64,000 nt of DNA. Source: Granulicella arctica (GTDB lineage Bacteria; Acidobacteriota; Terriglobia; Terriglobales; Acidobacteriaceae). The notes beneath the pieces are model-generated. The model worked only from the letters and a program-made list of their open reading frames with translations, was not told the origin of the DNA and ran no database searches. Within the stretch, counting starts at the first letter, position 1. The number at the start of each line of letters is the position of its first letter. The stretch is taken from the NCBI RefSeq assembly GCF_025685605.1, contig NZ_JAGTUT010000001.1, positions 4,216,001 through 4,280,000 of the forward strand. The letters are read 5' to 3'. The position numbers and the translations under genes were made by a program. Shown here in pieces: positions 58,259 through 64,000 of the stretch.

Positions 58259-61200
58259 TTAGTGGGGTTGCGCTTCACAGACACCACTGCCGACATAGGA
58301 GGGCTTGGGAACAAGCACGGCAGCATTCGCACTACTTGCTGGCCCTCCTGTCCCATTGATGATATTGCTAATTTGCCCGCTACCATTGAGGAAAACAGTT
58401 CCAACGTCTGCTATTTGGATCCCCGCATAAGTCGGCACTATCATTGCGTTATCTTCTACGATTTTAACGCTCTGATTAAAGTAGGAGTAAATTCCGAGAC
58501 CATACGCCTTGTGATTGCAGACGGACAGAGGAGATACCACGTATGACGGATAACCGTTCACCGAGCCATTGGCTGAGGGATAGGCTGACGAACTGCTGGA
58601 CCATGCAGCTTGGTTCGGTGGATCATACGGCAGTTCGCTTTGGTAGAAGATCGTTTGTCCATTGTCTCCAAACCATAGGACCTGTTCTTGCTGGTAGTGC
58701 TCAACGGCAAGGCCCAATGCCGTTACGCCGTTTCCATTTACGACCACGCCGTGAGCTGCCGTGTTCACAGTCCAACCCACTGTTCCTGGATTTCCATGAT
58801 CGGCGCGCCACGCCCAGATGTTATCGAGGATAACGCTTCCGCTATCAACCTGTAGACTCGTCGTTGCCGACCCTGCCGTAGAACCTCCGATGCGGAAGAA
58901 CACGTCGTTGAGCGAAGTTGGATTGGCCGCGTGAGTGTTGTTTACTGAGCCTGCCACACCCACTTCCACCAATACGCTCGAATTCACCGGGCCTGCGTCA
59001 ATCATCACTCCCGCCACTTGCACGCCATCAACGTCTGCCACAGTGATGGCGGGCGTTCCGGCTTGAGGAACAATGGTCGGGAAACCCATTCCGAGTACAA
59101 CTGTATCTGCGTTTTCTACGCGAATCGAGTCTGTGTATTGGTAGATGCCCGGTGTGAGAATGAGATTTTGACCCGACGCCAGAGCACTGTTAATCTCATC
59201 GATCGTGCTTGAGGGCTGCGCGATATAGAAGCTGGTGATTGGCAGCGAGTGACCGGTGCCCAGAACGTCGCCAGCCCAACTCGTTCCAGTGGAATTCGTG
59301 CGGACTGTTGGTACAAACACGTTATACAGATTGTTGATGTCGAGATATAGGAACGGTTTCTCCCTGCTTACCGGCGTTGTCGCGACATTGGTGACATTAA
59401 CCGCGCCAGCTGGTCCACCTGGATACGATTGAGCGGGCACGATTCCGGTATCACCCGAGAAGACAAAGTTCCACACGTAATTGTTGAAACCGCCTACGAG
59501 GTAAGTATTGCGCGTGTACCACTGCTGTTGAGAGCAGGCGTTTACACCGTTTCCACCGCTGCCTAATTGCGAGTCAGCAATAAAGCCTCCACTTGCTTCC
59601 TGACACGGATAAGCGGAACCGATCGTTCCAGAGTTCGCTAACCATAAGCCGCCAGAGACCAGCATTCGTCGAAGAGACGCACCCTGAGACACGCCCCAAT
59701 CCAACACGTTTGCTGTCAACCCACCCGCGGGACTCACAGCCATGTTCTCTTGCGAGCGCCAGAAGTTCTGGGTCATATTGCCGGAAATCAGTTGATCCGC
59801 ACCGAAACCGCCCGTCACGCTGACGTTAGTCGGCGACTGTCCTAGACCTGAGATTTGCTCGTAGAAGCCTAGTTGTGCGACCACCGGACTGGAAGCTGTT
59901 CCGTAGTTACCCGGCTTCAGTAGAACCGCATGACGATTCGTACTGAACTGTGTCTCCTGATTGAGCGAGTTCAACGTGGCGTTGATAGAAGCGGCTGACA
60001 TCGTAGGGTCGAGCACAATCACATTTGGCCCGAAATCGGGAGCGCTGGAACTTCCTGTCGACCCCGAGCTTGCAGATTGTGGAATGGGGATGTCGAATTG
60101 ATAATAGCAAGCCTTGACGACTCCCTGATTCGGATCACCGAACACAGAGGCACTGCATGGCGTGCCTCCGCTCAGCGTTTGATAATTGAAATGTCCATTT
60201 GCGCCGAAGGCTATTCTCCCCGGGCCTGCATAGCTGCATGTTTGATTTTCTTGTGCACACAAGACATATCCAGCGGGTCCCCCGTAAAGGTTTCCGGATG
60301 ACAGTTGGTAGTAACAGGTTTTCGCGTGATTTGGAGCCGGGTCGGTGTAGAAGGTCGAGACGCTGCAGGCAAATGAGTTTTGGAAGCCGGCGATCGAGGC
60401 AAAACTTCCACTCAAGCCAAGGGCTCCGATCGCGACTCCGTTGAAGGTGCAAGTTCCGCCTTCGTCGGCGCAGTAGACGCCTGGTTGCGAATGGTTGCCC
60501 CGAAGACCGAGAGCGGGACTGTAGTAGCAAGCCTTGGTCAAGCCGGGAGTAGGATCCCCGAAAGCACTAACACTGCATGCGGTGGTGTTTGTCACCGTCA
60601 GGTAGTTATATTTACCATTCGCGCCGAAGGCGACTACCCGCGTGCCAGCGAAGTTGCACGTTTGATTTTCAGCAATGCAATGGGTATATAGGGTCGTACC
60701 GTCAGCATTGCAGCCAGGGTAAACTGCGCCATTGACACCACTACAGTTATTTCCATCAGAGTAGCCATTTTCTTGCATATAACTCAAGTTGCGAAGACCT
60801 AAACCTGCAAGCTGAGCGGCCCAACCCGCAGCAGAGTCAGCGGTGATAATGTTGAAGTTCTTACCGACCACGAAGTTCAAGTCGCTGCGAGTGTCAGCAG
60901 TGTCGGCAGGTGTGCCACCCGGGTAACTATAGTGAAACATGTTGAGAGTTTGGCAGGTTTGTTGAACGCCATCGTAAGTAATAAAGCAAGAACCATTTTG
61001 TGAACTGAAGAAACGCGCAGTATGCGTAGGATCATTCGGGTCGAAGTAGTCTCCGGTAGGACTAAATTCGGCAACAGATCTTCCCTGAGCGATATTCGTC
61101 GTCCTCATGGTATCGAGGATACCCCCAGATTGTTTCTGGGTAATTTCCGCCGAGATCGTGCTGAGTGTGGTGTCCTGATAGAAGCTGTTTAAAGAGTTGG

Positions 61201-62143
61201 TGATAGCTTGTTCACCGCCGCCGAACGGCGATGATGGATCGATGTCGCTTGTGTTATAGATCCACCACATGTTGAGGTATGGAGCATCCGCTCCGAAGTC
61301 GTTATGGAAGGCCTGGGGTGTCGGATAAAGATTTCCACTGATCTTGAATACAACATCCTGCCTAAAAGGACGGCCGAGAAAGTCCATCTGTTGTTGTTGG
61401 TTTGTTTTGCTGTTGCCATTTATCGCATTCCATACCAGATGGAATGTTGCCGCGTCTTTGATGTCAAATGCCAAGACAGTTTGGATTTGATTCGCGTTAT
61501 AGAAATTGATGACATTTTGGAGCGTCGGCGGAGGCTCCGGATTGCTGGGATAGAGTAAAGAAACAGAATCGCGCAAGAGCAGATTTGCCTGAGTTTGCGC
61601 CATCGTCATACTCGTTATCAGGGGGTTGAAGGCGGTTTGCCCTGCCGGATCGGTGAAGGGATTGAATATCGAACCAGGACCCCCGCTTGTAAATACTGCT
61701 TGACGGCCCCAGGTCTTGTCGTGACTGAAGGTCAACTGGCCATCAGATGTCTGCTTAACATCAAGCTCAAGCACCTCGAGTCCGGCCCGTGCGGCAGCGG
61801 CAATAGATGCGAGCGAATTTTCGGGCACTCCTGGGACGTTTGGATTGTCTCCCGGGATTGCGTGAAGGCCGCGATGAGCGGACATGAGCGTTAGATCGGA
61901 GTGAGGTGTCTTCATCGCCTCGATGACTCTAATAGCATCCAAATGATTAGGGTTGTAGGAGTAGCTTCGCGTTTGTGCTTCGGACGAGCGGCAAAACAGC
62001 GCAACGCATAGCAGACCGACCGTCATACAGACGGGGTAGAAACCGGATAGTGACTTATTTGACCCTCGGACGCTTCGAATAATTGTGAGTCTCTTCGCGT
62101 CCTGAACGGTTCTTGACAGATGAAGGCAGCGATCTCGGAACAT
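58259..62143 (-). CDS. Secreted GDPD-like domain fused to Cys-rich repeats and beta-helix
   Basis: 1294 residues, start supported by AAGGAG 7 bp upstream. A late signal-like segment, MTVGLLCVALFCRSSEAQ (40-57), follows a basic N-terminus. Residues about 85-440 form a glycerophosphodiester-phosphodiesterase-like barrel: AHRGLH (His 90, Arg 91), PENSLAS (Glu 108), VLELDVK (Glu 126, Asp 128), SHDKTWGR (His 141). Residues about 485-690 are three roughly 70-residue repeats, each beginning CxAENQTC or CADEGGTC and ending with a xCYY pair. After a Ser/Gly linker the rest (about 705-1290) looks like a right-handed beta-helix related to actinomycete 'coagulation factor 5/8 type' proteins. Probably an extracellular polymer- or lipid-acting protein; exact reaction unknown. 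It is divergent from another GDPD/PLC-superfamily gene. Confidence 0.8.
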   Translation of the reverse strand: MFRDRCLHLSRTVQDAKRLTIIRSVRGSNKSLSGFYPVCMTVGLLCVALFCRSSEAQTRSYSYNPNHLDAIRVIEAMKTPHSDLTLMSAHRGLHAIPGDNPNVPGVPENSLASIAAAARAGLEVLELDVKQTSDGQLTFSHDKTWGRQAVFTSGGPGSIFNPFTDPAGQTAFNPLITSMTMAQTQANLLLRDSVSLLYPSNPEPPPTLQNVINFYNANQIQTVLAFDIKDAATFHLVWNAINGNSKTNQQQQMDFLGRPFRQDVVFKISGNLYPTPQAFHNDFGADAPYLNMWWIYNTSDIDPSSPFGGGEQAITNSLNSFYQDTTLSTISAEITQKQSGGILDTMRTTNIAQGRSVAEFSPTGDYFDPNDPTHTARFFSSQNGSCFITYDGVQQTCQTLNMFHYSYPGGTPADTADTRSDLNFVVGKNFNIITADSAAGWAAQLAGLGLRNLSYMQENGYSDGNNCSGVNGAVYPGCNADGTTLYTHCIAENQTCNFAGTRVVAFGANGKYNYLTVTNTTACSVSAFGDPTPGLTKACYYSPALGLRGNHSQPGVYCADEGGTCTFNGVAIGALGLSGSFASIAGFQNSFACSVSTFYTDPAPNHAKTCYYQLSSGNLYGGPAGYVLCAQENQTCSYAGPGRIAFGANGHFNYQTLSGGTPCSASVFGDPNQGVVKACYYQFDIPIPQSASSGSTGSSSAPDFGPNVIVLDPTMSAASINATLNSLNQETQFSTNRHAVLLKPGNYGTASSPVVAQLGFYEQISGLGQSPTNVSVTGGFGADQLISGNMTQNFWRSQENMAVSPAGGLTANVLDWGVSQGASLRRMLVSGGLWLANSGTIGSAYPCQEASGGFIADSQLGSGGNGVNACSQQQWYTRNTYLVGGFNNYVWNFVFSGDTGIVPAQSYPGGPAGAVNVTNVATTPVSREKPFLYLDINNLYNVFVPTVRTNSTGTSWAGDVLGTGHSLPITSFYIAQPSSTIDEINSALASGQNLILTPGIYQYTDSIRVENADTVVLGMGFPTIVPQAGTPAITVADVDGVQVAGVMIDAGPVNSSVLVEVGVAGSVNNTHAANPTSLNDVFFRIGGSTAGSATTSLQVDSGSVILDNIWAWRADHGNPGTVGWTVNTAAHGVVVNGNGVTALGLAVEHYQQEQVLWFGDNGQTIFYQSELPYDPPNQAAWSSSSSAYPSANGSVNGYPSYVVSPLSVCNHKAYGLGIYSYFNQSVKIVEDNAMIVPTYAGIQIADVGTVFLNGSGQISNIINGTGGPASSANAAVLVPKPSYVGSGVCEAQPH

Positions 62144-62588
62144 GCATTCTCCTTGGTTGGTTATGCTGCGGTTGGTGATAAGCGGAGGAGGTTACGCTGT
62201 GATCCTGCACCCCTTGTAGCCCTGAAACAAGTGAGGGACAGGTGAGATAAGGCCCGATGAAGAGTGAGTGATCCTCCTCTCTCTGCGCACGATGCAGTGC
62301 TTTCAAGAACTTGCAAGCGTGGACCGTTACTATCGCTAAGTGAAAATCTAATGAATGCGAAGTCCCTCAAAGAAAGCCTGTTCTAGGCGTCGCTCAGGGT
62401 GCAGTTCTGGCTTTGTTCCGAGAGGGTCTTGTTGGGCTTTCGAGCCGCGCCAGAATAAGCAGCGAGTTCTCTGCTGCTGGCAGTAACGTTCTTTACTTGC
62501 GGTCGCCGTTCGGCCACACTGCTAACTTTACAGAACGTAATGGGTCCACTCTGCAAGAACGTTGTAATCTGAGGACTCAGGAGAAGCG
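62144..62588. other. Divergent promoter region between the two phosphodiesterase-like genes
   Basis: 445 bp with no supported gene. It must hold the promoters of both genes. No palindrome of note was found. Confidence 0.4.
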
Positions 62589-63593
62589 ATGAGAGTAGGT
62601 TTCGCTCTAAAGTTTGGTGCCGCCCTTGTCACAGCAGCGTTATACTGGGGCGATGCGATCGCTCAATCGAGGCCTGGTGCGGTAGTCACGCCGGATGCGC
62701 ACAACTGTTACCCATACGCAGGGCTGTGGAGTGACCGGATTGATCGGGCCTTGGCAGGAGGAACGCCAGTAGCGATCGAGCAAGATCTCTTCTGGTATCG
62801 TCCTGATCCGTCCCTACCGGGACGCTCGGTCGTTGCTCATGGAAAGCCAGTCAACGGCAGCGAACCAGGGATGGTGCAGTACTTCTTCGAGCGTGTGCGT
62901 CCGCTGGTAGAAACTGCGACGCGCAATCCGAACCACTCCCACTGGCCGATCATCACGCTCAATTTGGACATCAAGACGGAGGAGCCGGAGCACCTGAGAG
63001 CGATCCACGAGCTGCTCGTTAAGTATCAGGCGTGGCTGACAAGCGCGACGCGCACAAACGACGCTTCGCATGTTGAAGTTCTGACCGTCGGTCCGATTCT
63101 CGTGCTAAACGGCCCATCGGACGCGCAGCAGAAGGTCTTCTACGACGAAATCCCGGTAGGCGGCAAGCTGCTGACGTTCGGTGCCGTACACAGCGATGTG
63201 CATGACCTGGCAGCTCCAGCGAACAAAATCGAGACGGAGAACGCATCGAATTACCGTCGCTGGTGGAACAACTCTTGGATCGTGATCGAACCGGAAGGGC
63301 AGCCACACGCAACGGCATGGACCCCGGATAAGAATGCGCGACTAAGATCGTTTGTTGCTCAGGCTCATGCCCGAGGACTCTGGATTCGCTTCTACACCCT
63401 GGACGGTGCGAGCAAAACCGAACAGGATACGAATGGCTGGTTCGCCGGCTATAACTTCCCGAGCCTCGATGCCGCCGGTCTGCGCTGGATCGACTCCATT
63501 CGAGATGGCGTGGACTATCTAGCGAGCGATCAGTACGAGCTGGTCTCTGCTTTGGTGCGGAAGATGACCCCATCTAAATTGCCGATCCGATAG
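62589..63593 (+). CDS. Secreted PLC/GDPD-superfamily phosphodiesterase-like protein
   Basis: 334 residues. The signal peptide is residues 1-25 (VGFALKFGAALVTAALYWG, then DAIAQS). HNCYPYAGLWSDRIDRAL opens the barrel, TPVAIEQDLFWY carries the acidic pair, VVAHGKP the His, and IITLNLDIKTEEPEHLRAI a central strand. The end FVAQAHARGLWIRFYTLDG resembles the last strands of PI-PLC/GDPD-like barrels. The classical HRG at the N-terminus is altered (AHNCYPY), so metal and substrate use may differ from GDPD. GGAG lies 8 bp before the ATG. It probably works outside the cytoplasm with the divergent large protein. Confidence 0.78.
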   Translation: MRVGFALKFGAALVTAALYWGDAIAQSRPGAVVTPDAHNCYPYAGLWSDRIDRALAGGTPVAIEQDLFWYRPDPSLPGRSVVAHGKPVNGSEPGMVQYFFERVRPLVETATRNPNHSHWPIITLNLDIKTEEPEHLRAIHELLVKYQAWLTSATRTNDASHVEVLTVGPILVLNGPSDAQQKVFYDEIPVGGKLLTFGAVHSDVHDLAAPANKIETENASNYRRWWNNSWIVIEPEGQPHATAWTPDKNARLRSFVAQAHARGLWIRFYTLDGASKTEQDTNGWFAGYNFPSLDAAGLRWIDSIRDGVDYLASDQYELVSALVRKMTPSKLPIR

Positions 63594-63642: not shown

Positions 63643-64000
63643 TCAAGGGATTCGGATCTTGATGTCGCTGCGCATTTGATCCTGCTGAGCCACAAGCAAC
63701 CACTTACCGTCCGGCGAAAGACTGACATCGGGATCATTGGTGACCAGTGGACCCGTAGGAGTTCCGAGAGCCGTTACATTGCCGTTCTCGAAGACACAGA
63801 TTTTGAAGGTTCCGGCGCTTGCGCCCTCAGTCGAATAAACGAGTCCGTGCGTAGTCGGAGCCCAGCTTTTCACAGGGAATGCCGTTATGTTCAACGGGTG
63901 AGCACCGGTGCCGTCGGGGTTCGCTTCAAAGAGATGGCCGGAACGGTCGCTGTAGTACAACTCCTTTCCATCCGGCGACTGGGCGACCGTGTACATCTCG
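63643..64000 (-). CDS. WD40/PD40-type beta-propeller protein, C-terminal end (partial)
   Basis: The frame is open to the right edge; only the last 119 codons are visible. Repeats of the PD40 type are seen: VAQSPDGKELYYSDRSGHLF and VSLSPDGKWLLVAQQDQMRS, with the final DIKIRIP strand. Proteins ending like this in Acidobacteriota are often winged-helix (CadC-like) regulators or kinases with a TolB-like propeller; the N-terminal domain is outside the window, so the class is undecided. Confidence 0.75.
   Translation of the reverse strand, partial: EMYTVAQSPDGKELYYSDRSGHLFEANPDGTGAHPLNITAFPVKSWAPTTHGLVYSTEGASAGTFKICVFENGNVTALGTPTGPLVTNDPDVSLSPDGKWLLVAQQDQMRSDIKIRIP

Follow-up and report, generated by a model that had tools for sequence, protein, structure and literature searches.

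A candidate phosphodiesterase domain joined to a GH55 beta-1,3-glucanase domain in Granulicella arctica, and its recurrence beside other polymer-degrading domains

We analyze two divergent genes in a 64,000-nucleotide stretch of Granulicella arctica DNA (NCBI RefSeq assembly GCF_025685605.1, contig NZ_JAGTUT010000001.1, positions 4,216,001 to 4,280,000 of the forward strand), hereafter referred to as the window. The longer gene, P0001, encodes a protein in which a glycerophosphodiester phosphodiesterase (GDPD) domain is followed by three cysteine repeats (“Cys modules”) and a domain of glycoside hydrolase (GH) family 55; the shorter, P0002, encodes a separate exported-looking protein. To judge from sequence comparison, the C-terminal beta-helix of P0001 is a beta-1,3-glucanase domain of GH55 that has kept the catalytic residues, not a binding part, and the GDPD domain belongs to a rare clade. 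GH55 and GDPD, like the other parts except the Cys module, are known families; as far as we have seen, it is the recurrent combination of GDPD with polymer-degrading domains that is new. The preliminary description of this DNA named no described system with the combination. This held in a literature search by title and beginning of abstract, with subscription papers mostly outside its reach, in which no GDPD-glycoside hydrolase fusion appears among the papers listed.

The two genes and their domains

Two divergent open reading frames are present, as first described, and both begin with a signal-peptide-like stretch (judged by eye), which agrees with the secreted character first ascribed to them. 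The features are as follows; L and G numbers used below denote loci and genomes, respectively.

58259..62143, minus strand: P0001, 1294 residues, with a signal-peptide-like start, GDPD, three Cys modules and GH55
61973..62026, minus strand: likely core of the P0001 signal peptide, with its cleavage end (residues ~40-57, ending SSEAQ; by eye)
60704..61966, minus strand: GDPD domain of P0001 (residues 60-480, with large insertions; from Pfam and a 10-domain alignment), with motifs HRG at 90-92, EN at 108-109, ExD at 126/128, HD at 141-142, DxK at 227/229 and the C-terminal D at 436
60515..60697, minus strand: Cys module 1 of P0001 (core residues 489-540)
60305..60490, minus strand: Cys module 2 of P0001 (core residues 558-611)
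60095..60277, minus strand: Cys module 3 of P0001 (core residues 629-680)
58331..60043, minus strand: GH55 beta-1,3-glucanase domain of P0001 (residues 701-1271; from the match to 4pew)
62144..62588, no strand: divergent intergenic region between P0001 and P0002 (445 bases; from the coordinates)
62589..63593, plus strand: P0002, 334 residues, with a signal peptide at ~residues 1-26 (by eye) and motif positions H38 N39, E64xD66, H84 and D127xK129 (from an alignment)

The C-terminal part of P0001 had been described as a pectate-lyase-like beta-helix serving for binding. In a phmmer search of the PDB, residues 701-1271 match residues 17-549 of the 561 in 4pew (SacteLam55A) at E 1.1e-139, and the entries 4pew, 4pex, 4tz1 and 4tyv all match this range at E 1.1e-139 to 1.6e-138. 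The beta-helix thus stands, as the GH55 fold consists of two such helices, while the pectate lyase likeness and the binding role do not: no pectate lyase family is found for P0001 at E <= 1 in Pfam or NCBIfam. SacteLam55A (4pew, 4tz1) is described, in the excerpt of PMC10637969 used here, as a GH55 exo-beta-1,3-glucosidase made of two beta-helices, with general acid E502, an adjusting Y505, a proton relay of T149/Q174/S198/E480, W446/D449/H481 at subsite -1, and an aromatic block with F152 and W444. We mapped these residues onto P0001 by hand, using the printed 4pew alignment. The general acid corresponds to E1170 and the tyrosine to Y1173; the relay is kept as T791/Q820/S851/E1148, subsite -1 as W1112/D1115/H1149, and the aromatic block as F794 and W1110, to which W1112 also belongs.

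The window’s genome holds a second GH55 protein, a 597-residue frame with 47% identity (G000:C1:4645682-4647289). Pfam-A (2025 copy) names no family for the bacterial GH55 domain in any of the 15 GH55 proteins scanned (P0001 and those of L033, L036-L041, L045, L046, L048, L049 and L051-L053). Annotation by Pfam alone would therefore miss this domain, despite its crystal structure. In L046, L051, L052 and L053, ~190-580 residues precede the GH55 domain, and Pfam names nothing there (E <= 0.01).

For the N-terminal half, the preliminary description had proposed a GDPD-like barrel with HRG, EN, ExD and HD residues. Pfam PF03009 matches residues 101-214 at E 1.8e-8 with 35.2 bits, above the curated cut-off of 23.6, and the motif residues are present (H90 R91 G92, E108 N109, E126xD128, H141 D142), which together bear the GDPD assignment out. 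A profile of the clade finds its closest solved structures among GDPDs, namely 7e0v (6.6e-17), 2pz0 (2e-16) and 4oec. Two entries named beta-1,3(4)-glucanase, 7ww4 and 7wwc, match positions 28-84 of the GDPD profile (E 1.5e-6).

The three Cys repeats of the preliminary description were likewise recovered as three modules. Across six proteins, 17 such repeats align over ~62 positions, with four cysteines, two of them invariant and two nearly so (one copy in L044 is without two of them), and with D48 and K55 invariant. No Pfam family matches the modules (E <= 1 for P0001 and <= 0.01 for the relatives), and no solved relative was found in the PDB (best E 0.62). The module occurs in 3 of 297 genomes of the phylum at E <= 1e-5, and on plasmids of Cupriavidus, Glaciecola, Deinococcus and Eleftheria, where an S8 peptidase gene (by annotation) contains one copy and a YD-repeat protein another. 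Proteins of various kinds thus carry it, across several phyla. Within the window’s phylum but outside its family, it ends a 305-residue exported-looking protein (L126:1492-2409, G615), behind repeats that we take to be hemopexin-like.

Recurrence of the GDPD clade with different partners

We searched 398 genomes of the family with a GDPD-Cys profile (A1) at E <= 1e-10, scoring at most three candidates per genome. Matches in 10 genomes correspond to 10 loci of the GDPD clade in 9 of them. The tenth genome (G130) contains L044, which was left out of the GDPD count because its GDPD-like N-terminus is degenerate (HHalign probability 5.9%). A match at G324:C16 (E 5.5e-13, in a 379-residue frame) spans just 84 positions and was grouped with ordinary GDPDs. 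A phylum-wide search (396 genomes, E <= 1e-15), in which no more than four candidates were scored in each genome and absence elsewhere is therefore not proven, returned three matches, all in the window’s family; the one in G180 (E 7.8e-16) is an ordinary 312-residue frame. The viral contigs searched gave one remote GDPD match (L123) and no relative of P0002.

Partner domains were assigned by Pfam and BLAST, with GH55 resting on BLAST to P0001 and “GH54” being our own reading of the Pfam family ArabFuran-catal. The ten loci are arranged as follows.

Window: GDPD-Cys3-GH55
L033 (Acidobacteriaceae bacterium ZG23-2): GH55-GDPD-Cys-RicinB-Cys2
L043: GDPD-Cys3-GH30-B_lectin-Cys
L103: GDPD-GH30-B_lectin-like (below cut-off)-Cys
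L102: GDPD-Ig-like-GH54
L106: GDPD-GH18
L104: GDPD-Cys3-GH6-RicinB
L101: GDPD-GDSL-FG-GAP
L100: GDPD plus an overlapping frame with an Alginate_lyase2 domain (presumably PL7) and many RicinB units
L105: GDPD alone, 460 residues

Seven of the ten thus carry a glycoside hydrolase of GH55, GH30, GH54, GH18 or GH6 in the same frame; the remaining three have a GDSL domain, an overlapping lyase frame and no partner, respectively. At L100:7268-12654 (G209), the 572-residue GDPD frame overlaps the 1293-residue lyase/RicinB frame by 214 bases in another reading frame, as if a single fusion gene had been split by a frame break, whether real or an assembly error. L044:6903-12278 (G130) encodes 1791 residues with three Cys modules, ArabFuran-catal (GH54) and BNR repeats. 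Its N-terminus holds degenerate GDPD-like motifs only (HRG, ELD, HG) and is possibly a decayed GDPD.

The closest solved structure to the GH30 domain of L043 is 5ngk (5.2e-29), identified as BT3312, an endo-1,6-beta-glucanase of GH30_3, in the part of PMC5481569 drawn on here. As the glucosylceramidase 3ke0 scores nearly as well (4e-27), the subfamily is not settled, with GH30_3 possible.

As a control, we collected PF03009 matches at E <= 1e-5 in the same 10 genomes, which had been picked for holding the clade or its Cys modules; 46 matches were joined by hand into 38 loci. Clade GDPDs lie in open frames of at least 975 residues in 8 of 10 cases (the others have 472 and 580), versus 0 of 28 non-clade GDPDs in frames longer than 600 residues (range 207-600; Fisher p 9e-7). 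It is this clade, and not GDPDs generally, that is marked by fusion. Nor is the observation a chance one, as the GH55 match is decisive and nine other loci hold the GDPD domain.

The combination of GH55 with GDPD recurs in L033, where the domain order of P0001 is permuted. In a tree of 19 GH55 domains, that of the window groups with that of L033 as its sister (100/99). In the GDPD tree, by contrast, the window is sister to L043 (99/98) and L033 to L100 (100/99); five of the seven inner branches of this tree are open, and L104 sits on a long branch. A GDPD clade of the window and L033 was rejected (p-AU 0.00017), as was a grouping of the two GH30-linked GDPDs (p-AU 0.008), with p values that are weakened because the tested clades were named after the trees had been seen. 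The permuted order in L033 and the conflicting domain trees indicate that the modules have recombined, in both orders.

P0002 and the gene neighbourhood

P0002 had been described as a second GDPD/PLC-like protein with an altered HRG, divergent from P0001. The divergent placement and the alteration are both there, with H38-N39 occupying the place of the GDPD HRG. The kinship is less certain. Four positions or motifs (H38, E64xD66, H84 and D127xK129) are invariant in P0002 and 12 relatives selected from those found (13/13), and we take this His...ExD...His...DxK pattern to be a mark of the wider PLC/GDPD-like superfamily, to which P0002 may belong. P0002 has neither a Pfam family above cut-off nor a PDB match at E <= 1. 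GDPD_2 is matched by one of the 13 aligned sequences (E 0.036), and HHalign of the P0002 profile against the GDPD clade gives a probability of 4.5%, which does not support a link. A single-sequence AlphaFold model is poor, with a mean pLDDT of 40.3. Weak Pec_lyase matches in 7 of the 13 sequences (best E 0.0039) cover a short piece, and P0002 itself scores 15.2 bits against a cut-off of 22.

Relatives of P0002, some of them fragments only, occur in 54 of 299 genomes of the family and 7 of 149 of the phylum, and a plasmid search returned none. Of the 54 genomes, only three (G000, G141 and G295) share the GDPD clade. We compared 11 fusion-group stretches (the ten loci plus L044): a P0002 relative is near in two, adjacent in the window and ~6 kb away in L043. 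In G130, one lies ~18 kb from the Cys3-GH54 gene. The preliminary description had expected homologues to keep the pair together; they do so in these two loci and not in the other nine, which makes the pair a loose association and not a fixed unit. The conserved unit is GDPD plus a polymer-degrading module, not the divergent pair.

The genes beyond P0002 are as follows.

63643..63999, minus strand: C-terminal end of a PD40 beta-propeller protein (741 residues in full, running past the window; L034:3644-5869), which we presume to be regulator-like
L034:5903-9424: outer-membrane beta-barrel protein (PF25183), following the PD40 gene

In the window locus, L043 and L108, P0002 or its relative, the PD40 protein and the barrel gene lie in one cluster. 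We compared the 11 fusion-group stretches with 17 GH55 stretches lacking a GDPD, chosen by us from a set of GH55 matches and L032 and so not a random background; the latter are 10.1-17.8 kb long and the former 15.0-20.2 kb, except L101 (7.3 kb). A first count drew its query genes from the fusion group and a second from all groups. With queries from all groups, 9 of 11 fusion loci have a barrel gene no more than 5 kb away, versus 2 of 17 GH55-only stretches (p 0.0004); counted over the entire stretch, the figures are 9 of 11 and 4 of 17 (p 0.006). The barrel genes scanned by Pfam belong to PF25183. For the regulator-like gene, an enrichment in the first count (8/11 versus 3/17) was not found in the second (8/11 versus 6/17, p 0.12), and we dropped this association as evidence; within 5 kb, the gene is present in 5 of 11 and 5 of 17, respectively.

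Around P0002 relatives, 10 of 12 stretches that we chose (from 11 genomes, G130 twice) hold an outer-membrane barrel gene, and 5 of 12 hold a ~500-residue metallohydrolase that, from its motif, we take to be PHP-like. In L107, L109, L111, L112 and L113, the P0002 relatives adjoin both this protein and the barrel. Pfam finds nothing in the two PHP-like copies scanned. This group is possibly a cluster for phosphoester use.

Transposase-like genes (HTH_Tnp_1; rve) flank the locus of P0001 at window:56791-57075 and L034:11969-13507 and could have aided module shuffling. Farther away, overlapping minus-strand frames at window:50513-51693 (229 and 237 residues) look, by eye, like one major facilitator superfamily (MFS) transporter with a frame break.

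Proposed function, alternatives and known systems

We propose, with a probability of roughly 0.6, that P0001 is an exported two-enzyme scavenger acting on beta-glucan-rich biomass, its substrate and activity being predicted from its domains. P0001 would settle on dead biomass rich in beta-1,3-glucan, most likely fungal wall, with the help of the Cys modules, which may bind glycans. The GH55 domain would take sugars off the non-reducing ends of beta-1,3-glucan, if its exo action follows that of the nearest solved relative, by an inverting mechanism with E1170 as the acid and a water activated via E1148, Q820, S851 and T791. Enzymes of the GDPD family use a metal-dependent mechanism with two histidines (H90 and H141 in P0001). 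The GDPD domain would hydrolyze phosphodiesters in the same material, e.g., glycerophosphodiesters of membrane lipids or phosphate-bridged wall components. The released sugars and phosphate compounds might then be taken up, perhaps via the neighbouring outer-membrane barrel. P0002 would be a separate exported enzyme, possibly phosphodiesterase-like, found in the same cluster here and in one relative. Secretion, biomass binding, phosphodiesterase activity, the phosphate substrate and uptake by the barrel are steps that we infer.

As the same GDPD clade appears with GH30, GH54, GH18, GH6 and GDSL partners, it behaves as a mobile catalytic accessory, which would couple phosphodiester cleavage to whichever polymer its partner attacks. 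We favour the co-release of sugar and phosphate because these partners attack different polymers. More broadly, the clade may represent an unrecognised class of catalytic accessory, in which a phosphodiesterase is placed either before or after unrelated glycoside hydrolases or other polymer-degrading domains and cuts phosphodiester links where the glycan is cut; we advance this tentatively, at somewhat less than even odds.

Several observations weigh against the scavenger reading. Ordinary GDPDs have a glutamate as third metal ligand followed by a lysine (ExK), which is not a curated requirement. All ten clade domains have Asp, a conservative change, at the third-ligand position, for which reason we call the P0001 domain a variant clade within PF03009 and not a standard member. 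The lysine two residues past it is kept in six (as DIK in P0001) and replaced by Gln in two and Arg in two. These altered positions mean that the specificity of the GDPD may have changed. An AlphaFold model of the GDPD-Cys region with one relative (a two-sequence alignment) has a mean pLDDT of 33.7, too poor to show a barrel. The GDPD of L105 stands without a partner, and the degenerate motifs in L044 mean that catalysis is not always kept. The variety of polymers attacked by the partners leaves “fungal wall” unfixed, and the barrel and regulator counts are subject to the choice and lengths of the stretches compared.

The main alternative is that the GDPD targets one particular phosphodiester, either a bridge in the glycan or a decoration on it, and would thereby unblock the chain for the exo-acting GH55. 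Candidate bridges are the phosphodiester of a glycosylphosphatidylinositol (GPI) remnant, linking mannoprotein to fungal beta-1,6-/beta-1,3-glucan, and phosphoglycerol or phosphocholine on bacterial beta-1,3;1,6-glucans. Fungal and cyclic bacterial glucans contain beta-1,3 and beta-1,6 linkages, both of which would be served by GH55 (beta-1,3) and a 5ngk-like GH30 (1,6); the GH18 partner suits a fungal wall as well, substituents block exo enzymes, and GPI anchors are cleaved by certain members of the GDPD family (GDE2). However, the GH6, GH54, GDSL and alginate-lyase-type partners are not enzymes of those glucans, the near tie of 3ke0 with 5ngk leaves the 1,6 specificity of the L043 GH30 in doubt, and the ethanolamine-phosphate-mannose bond has no vicinal hydroxyl of the kind on which GDPD chemistry normally relies. 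We consider such a bridge unlikely. A GPI-anchored arabinogalactan-protein substrate, raised by the GH54 partner, is not favoured either, as most partners are not its enzymes.

The GDPD barrel could also be a binding or scaffold module without catalysis, resembling a carbohydrate-binding module (CBM) or a cell-surface anchor. Like a CBM, it is found together with many enzymes, its metal and lysine positions are altered, and L044 has at most a degenerate copy. Yet the HRG, EN, ExD, HD and C-terminal D residues are invariant in 10/10 clade domains, the other nine of which are 23-50% identical to the window’s. Such conservation next to differing partners is hard to explain without catalysis and argues for selection on it, so we regard a purely structural role as quite improbable.

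The least probable reading is that of the preliminary description, in which the two proteins share one target, a teichoic-acid-like extracellular polymer or a glycolipid that contains glycerophosphodiesters, and the helix and repeats bind it: a GDPD domain is present, P0002 is PLC-like by motif, and the solved relatives include large GP-PDE domain proteins (9euf, 9eul), a domain type found in phage tails, but the helix is a GH55 domain with its catalytic residues, which makes beta-1,3-glucan the more likely polymer, the pair is close in just 2 of 11 loci, and the partners of the clade (GH30, GH54, GH18, GH6, GDSL and an alginate-lyase-type frame) do not tie it to one glycerophosphate polymer.

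If the scavenger reading and its extension to the clade are right, the accessory would yield carbon and phosphorus together, or break phosphate cross-links that protect the polymer. The release of carbon and that of phosphorus from dead fungal or plant walls by a common group of soil bacteria would then be linked directly, in a way that can be tested. The fusions would supply candidates for bifunctional wall-degrading enzymes, and the 60-residue Cys module one for glycan binding. If confirmed, the clade would be a plug-in phosphodiesterase partner of polysaccharide-degrading enzymes, of which the papers listed in the search described above gave no example.

Secreted glycerophosphodiesterases of Pseudomonas free phosphorus in soil (PMC5438359). 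Like GlpQI and GlpQII of that study, P0001 would be of the extracellular glycerophosphodiesterase type, a likeness by description; theirs act on organic phosphorus in soil, and the portion of the paper used here mentions no glycan-degrading partner. Compared to bacterial GDPDs (PF03009; 7e0v, 2pz0, 4oec), the clade has the same HRG, EN, ExD, HD and terminal D. However, its domain is ~400 residues long with large insertions, versus ~250, has Asp for the Glu that we take to be the third metal ligand, and is mostly fused to polymer-degrading domains.

The Bacteroides 1,6-beta-glucan utilisation locus with BT3312 places a surface glucanase beside an outer-membrane importer and is directed at fungal glucan (PMC5481569); the solved structure nearest to the GH30 partner in L043 is that of BT3312. 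The five encoded proteins given in the excerpt of that paper include no GDPD. The barrel here is of family OMP_b-brl_4; of the SusC/SusD-like pair that marks polysaccharide utilisation loci of the Bacteroidetes type, our comparison covers the outer-membrane barrel gene, present in 9 of 11 loci.

The Cys modules are appended to enzymes much as CBM92 is appended to GH18, GH16 and GH30 (subfamily 3) types in the part of PMC11039641 consulted. CBM92 is described there as a beta-trefoil with WExF motifs, whereas the Cys module has ~60 residues and four cysteines and is present as a single copy or as three consecutive ones. A further counterpart is SacteLam55A of Streptomyces sp. SirexAA-E (4pew, 4tz1), with which P0001 shares the general acid, the tyrosine, the relay, subsite -1 and the aromatic block; in P0001, this GH55 enzyme forms the C-terminal portion of a 1294-residue protein, behind a GDPD domain and three Cys modules.

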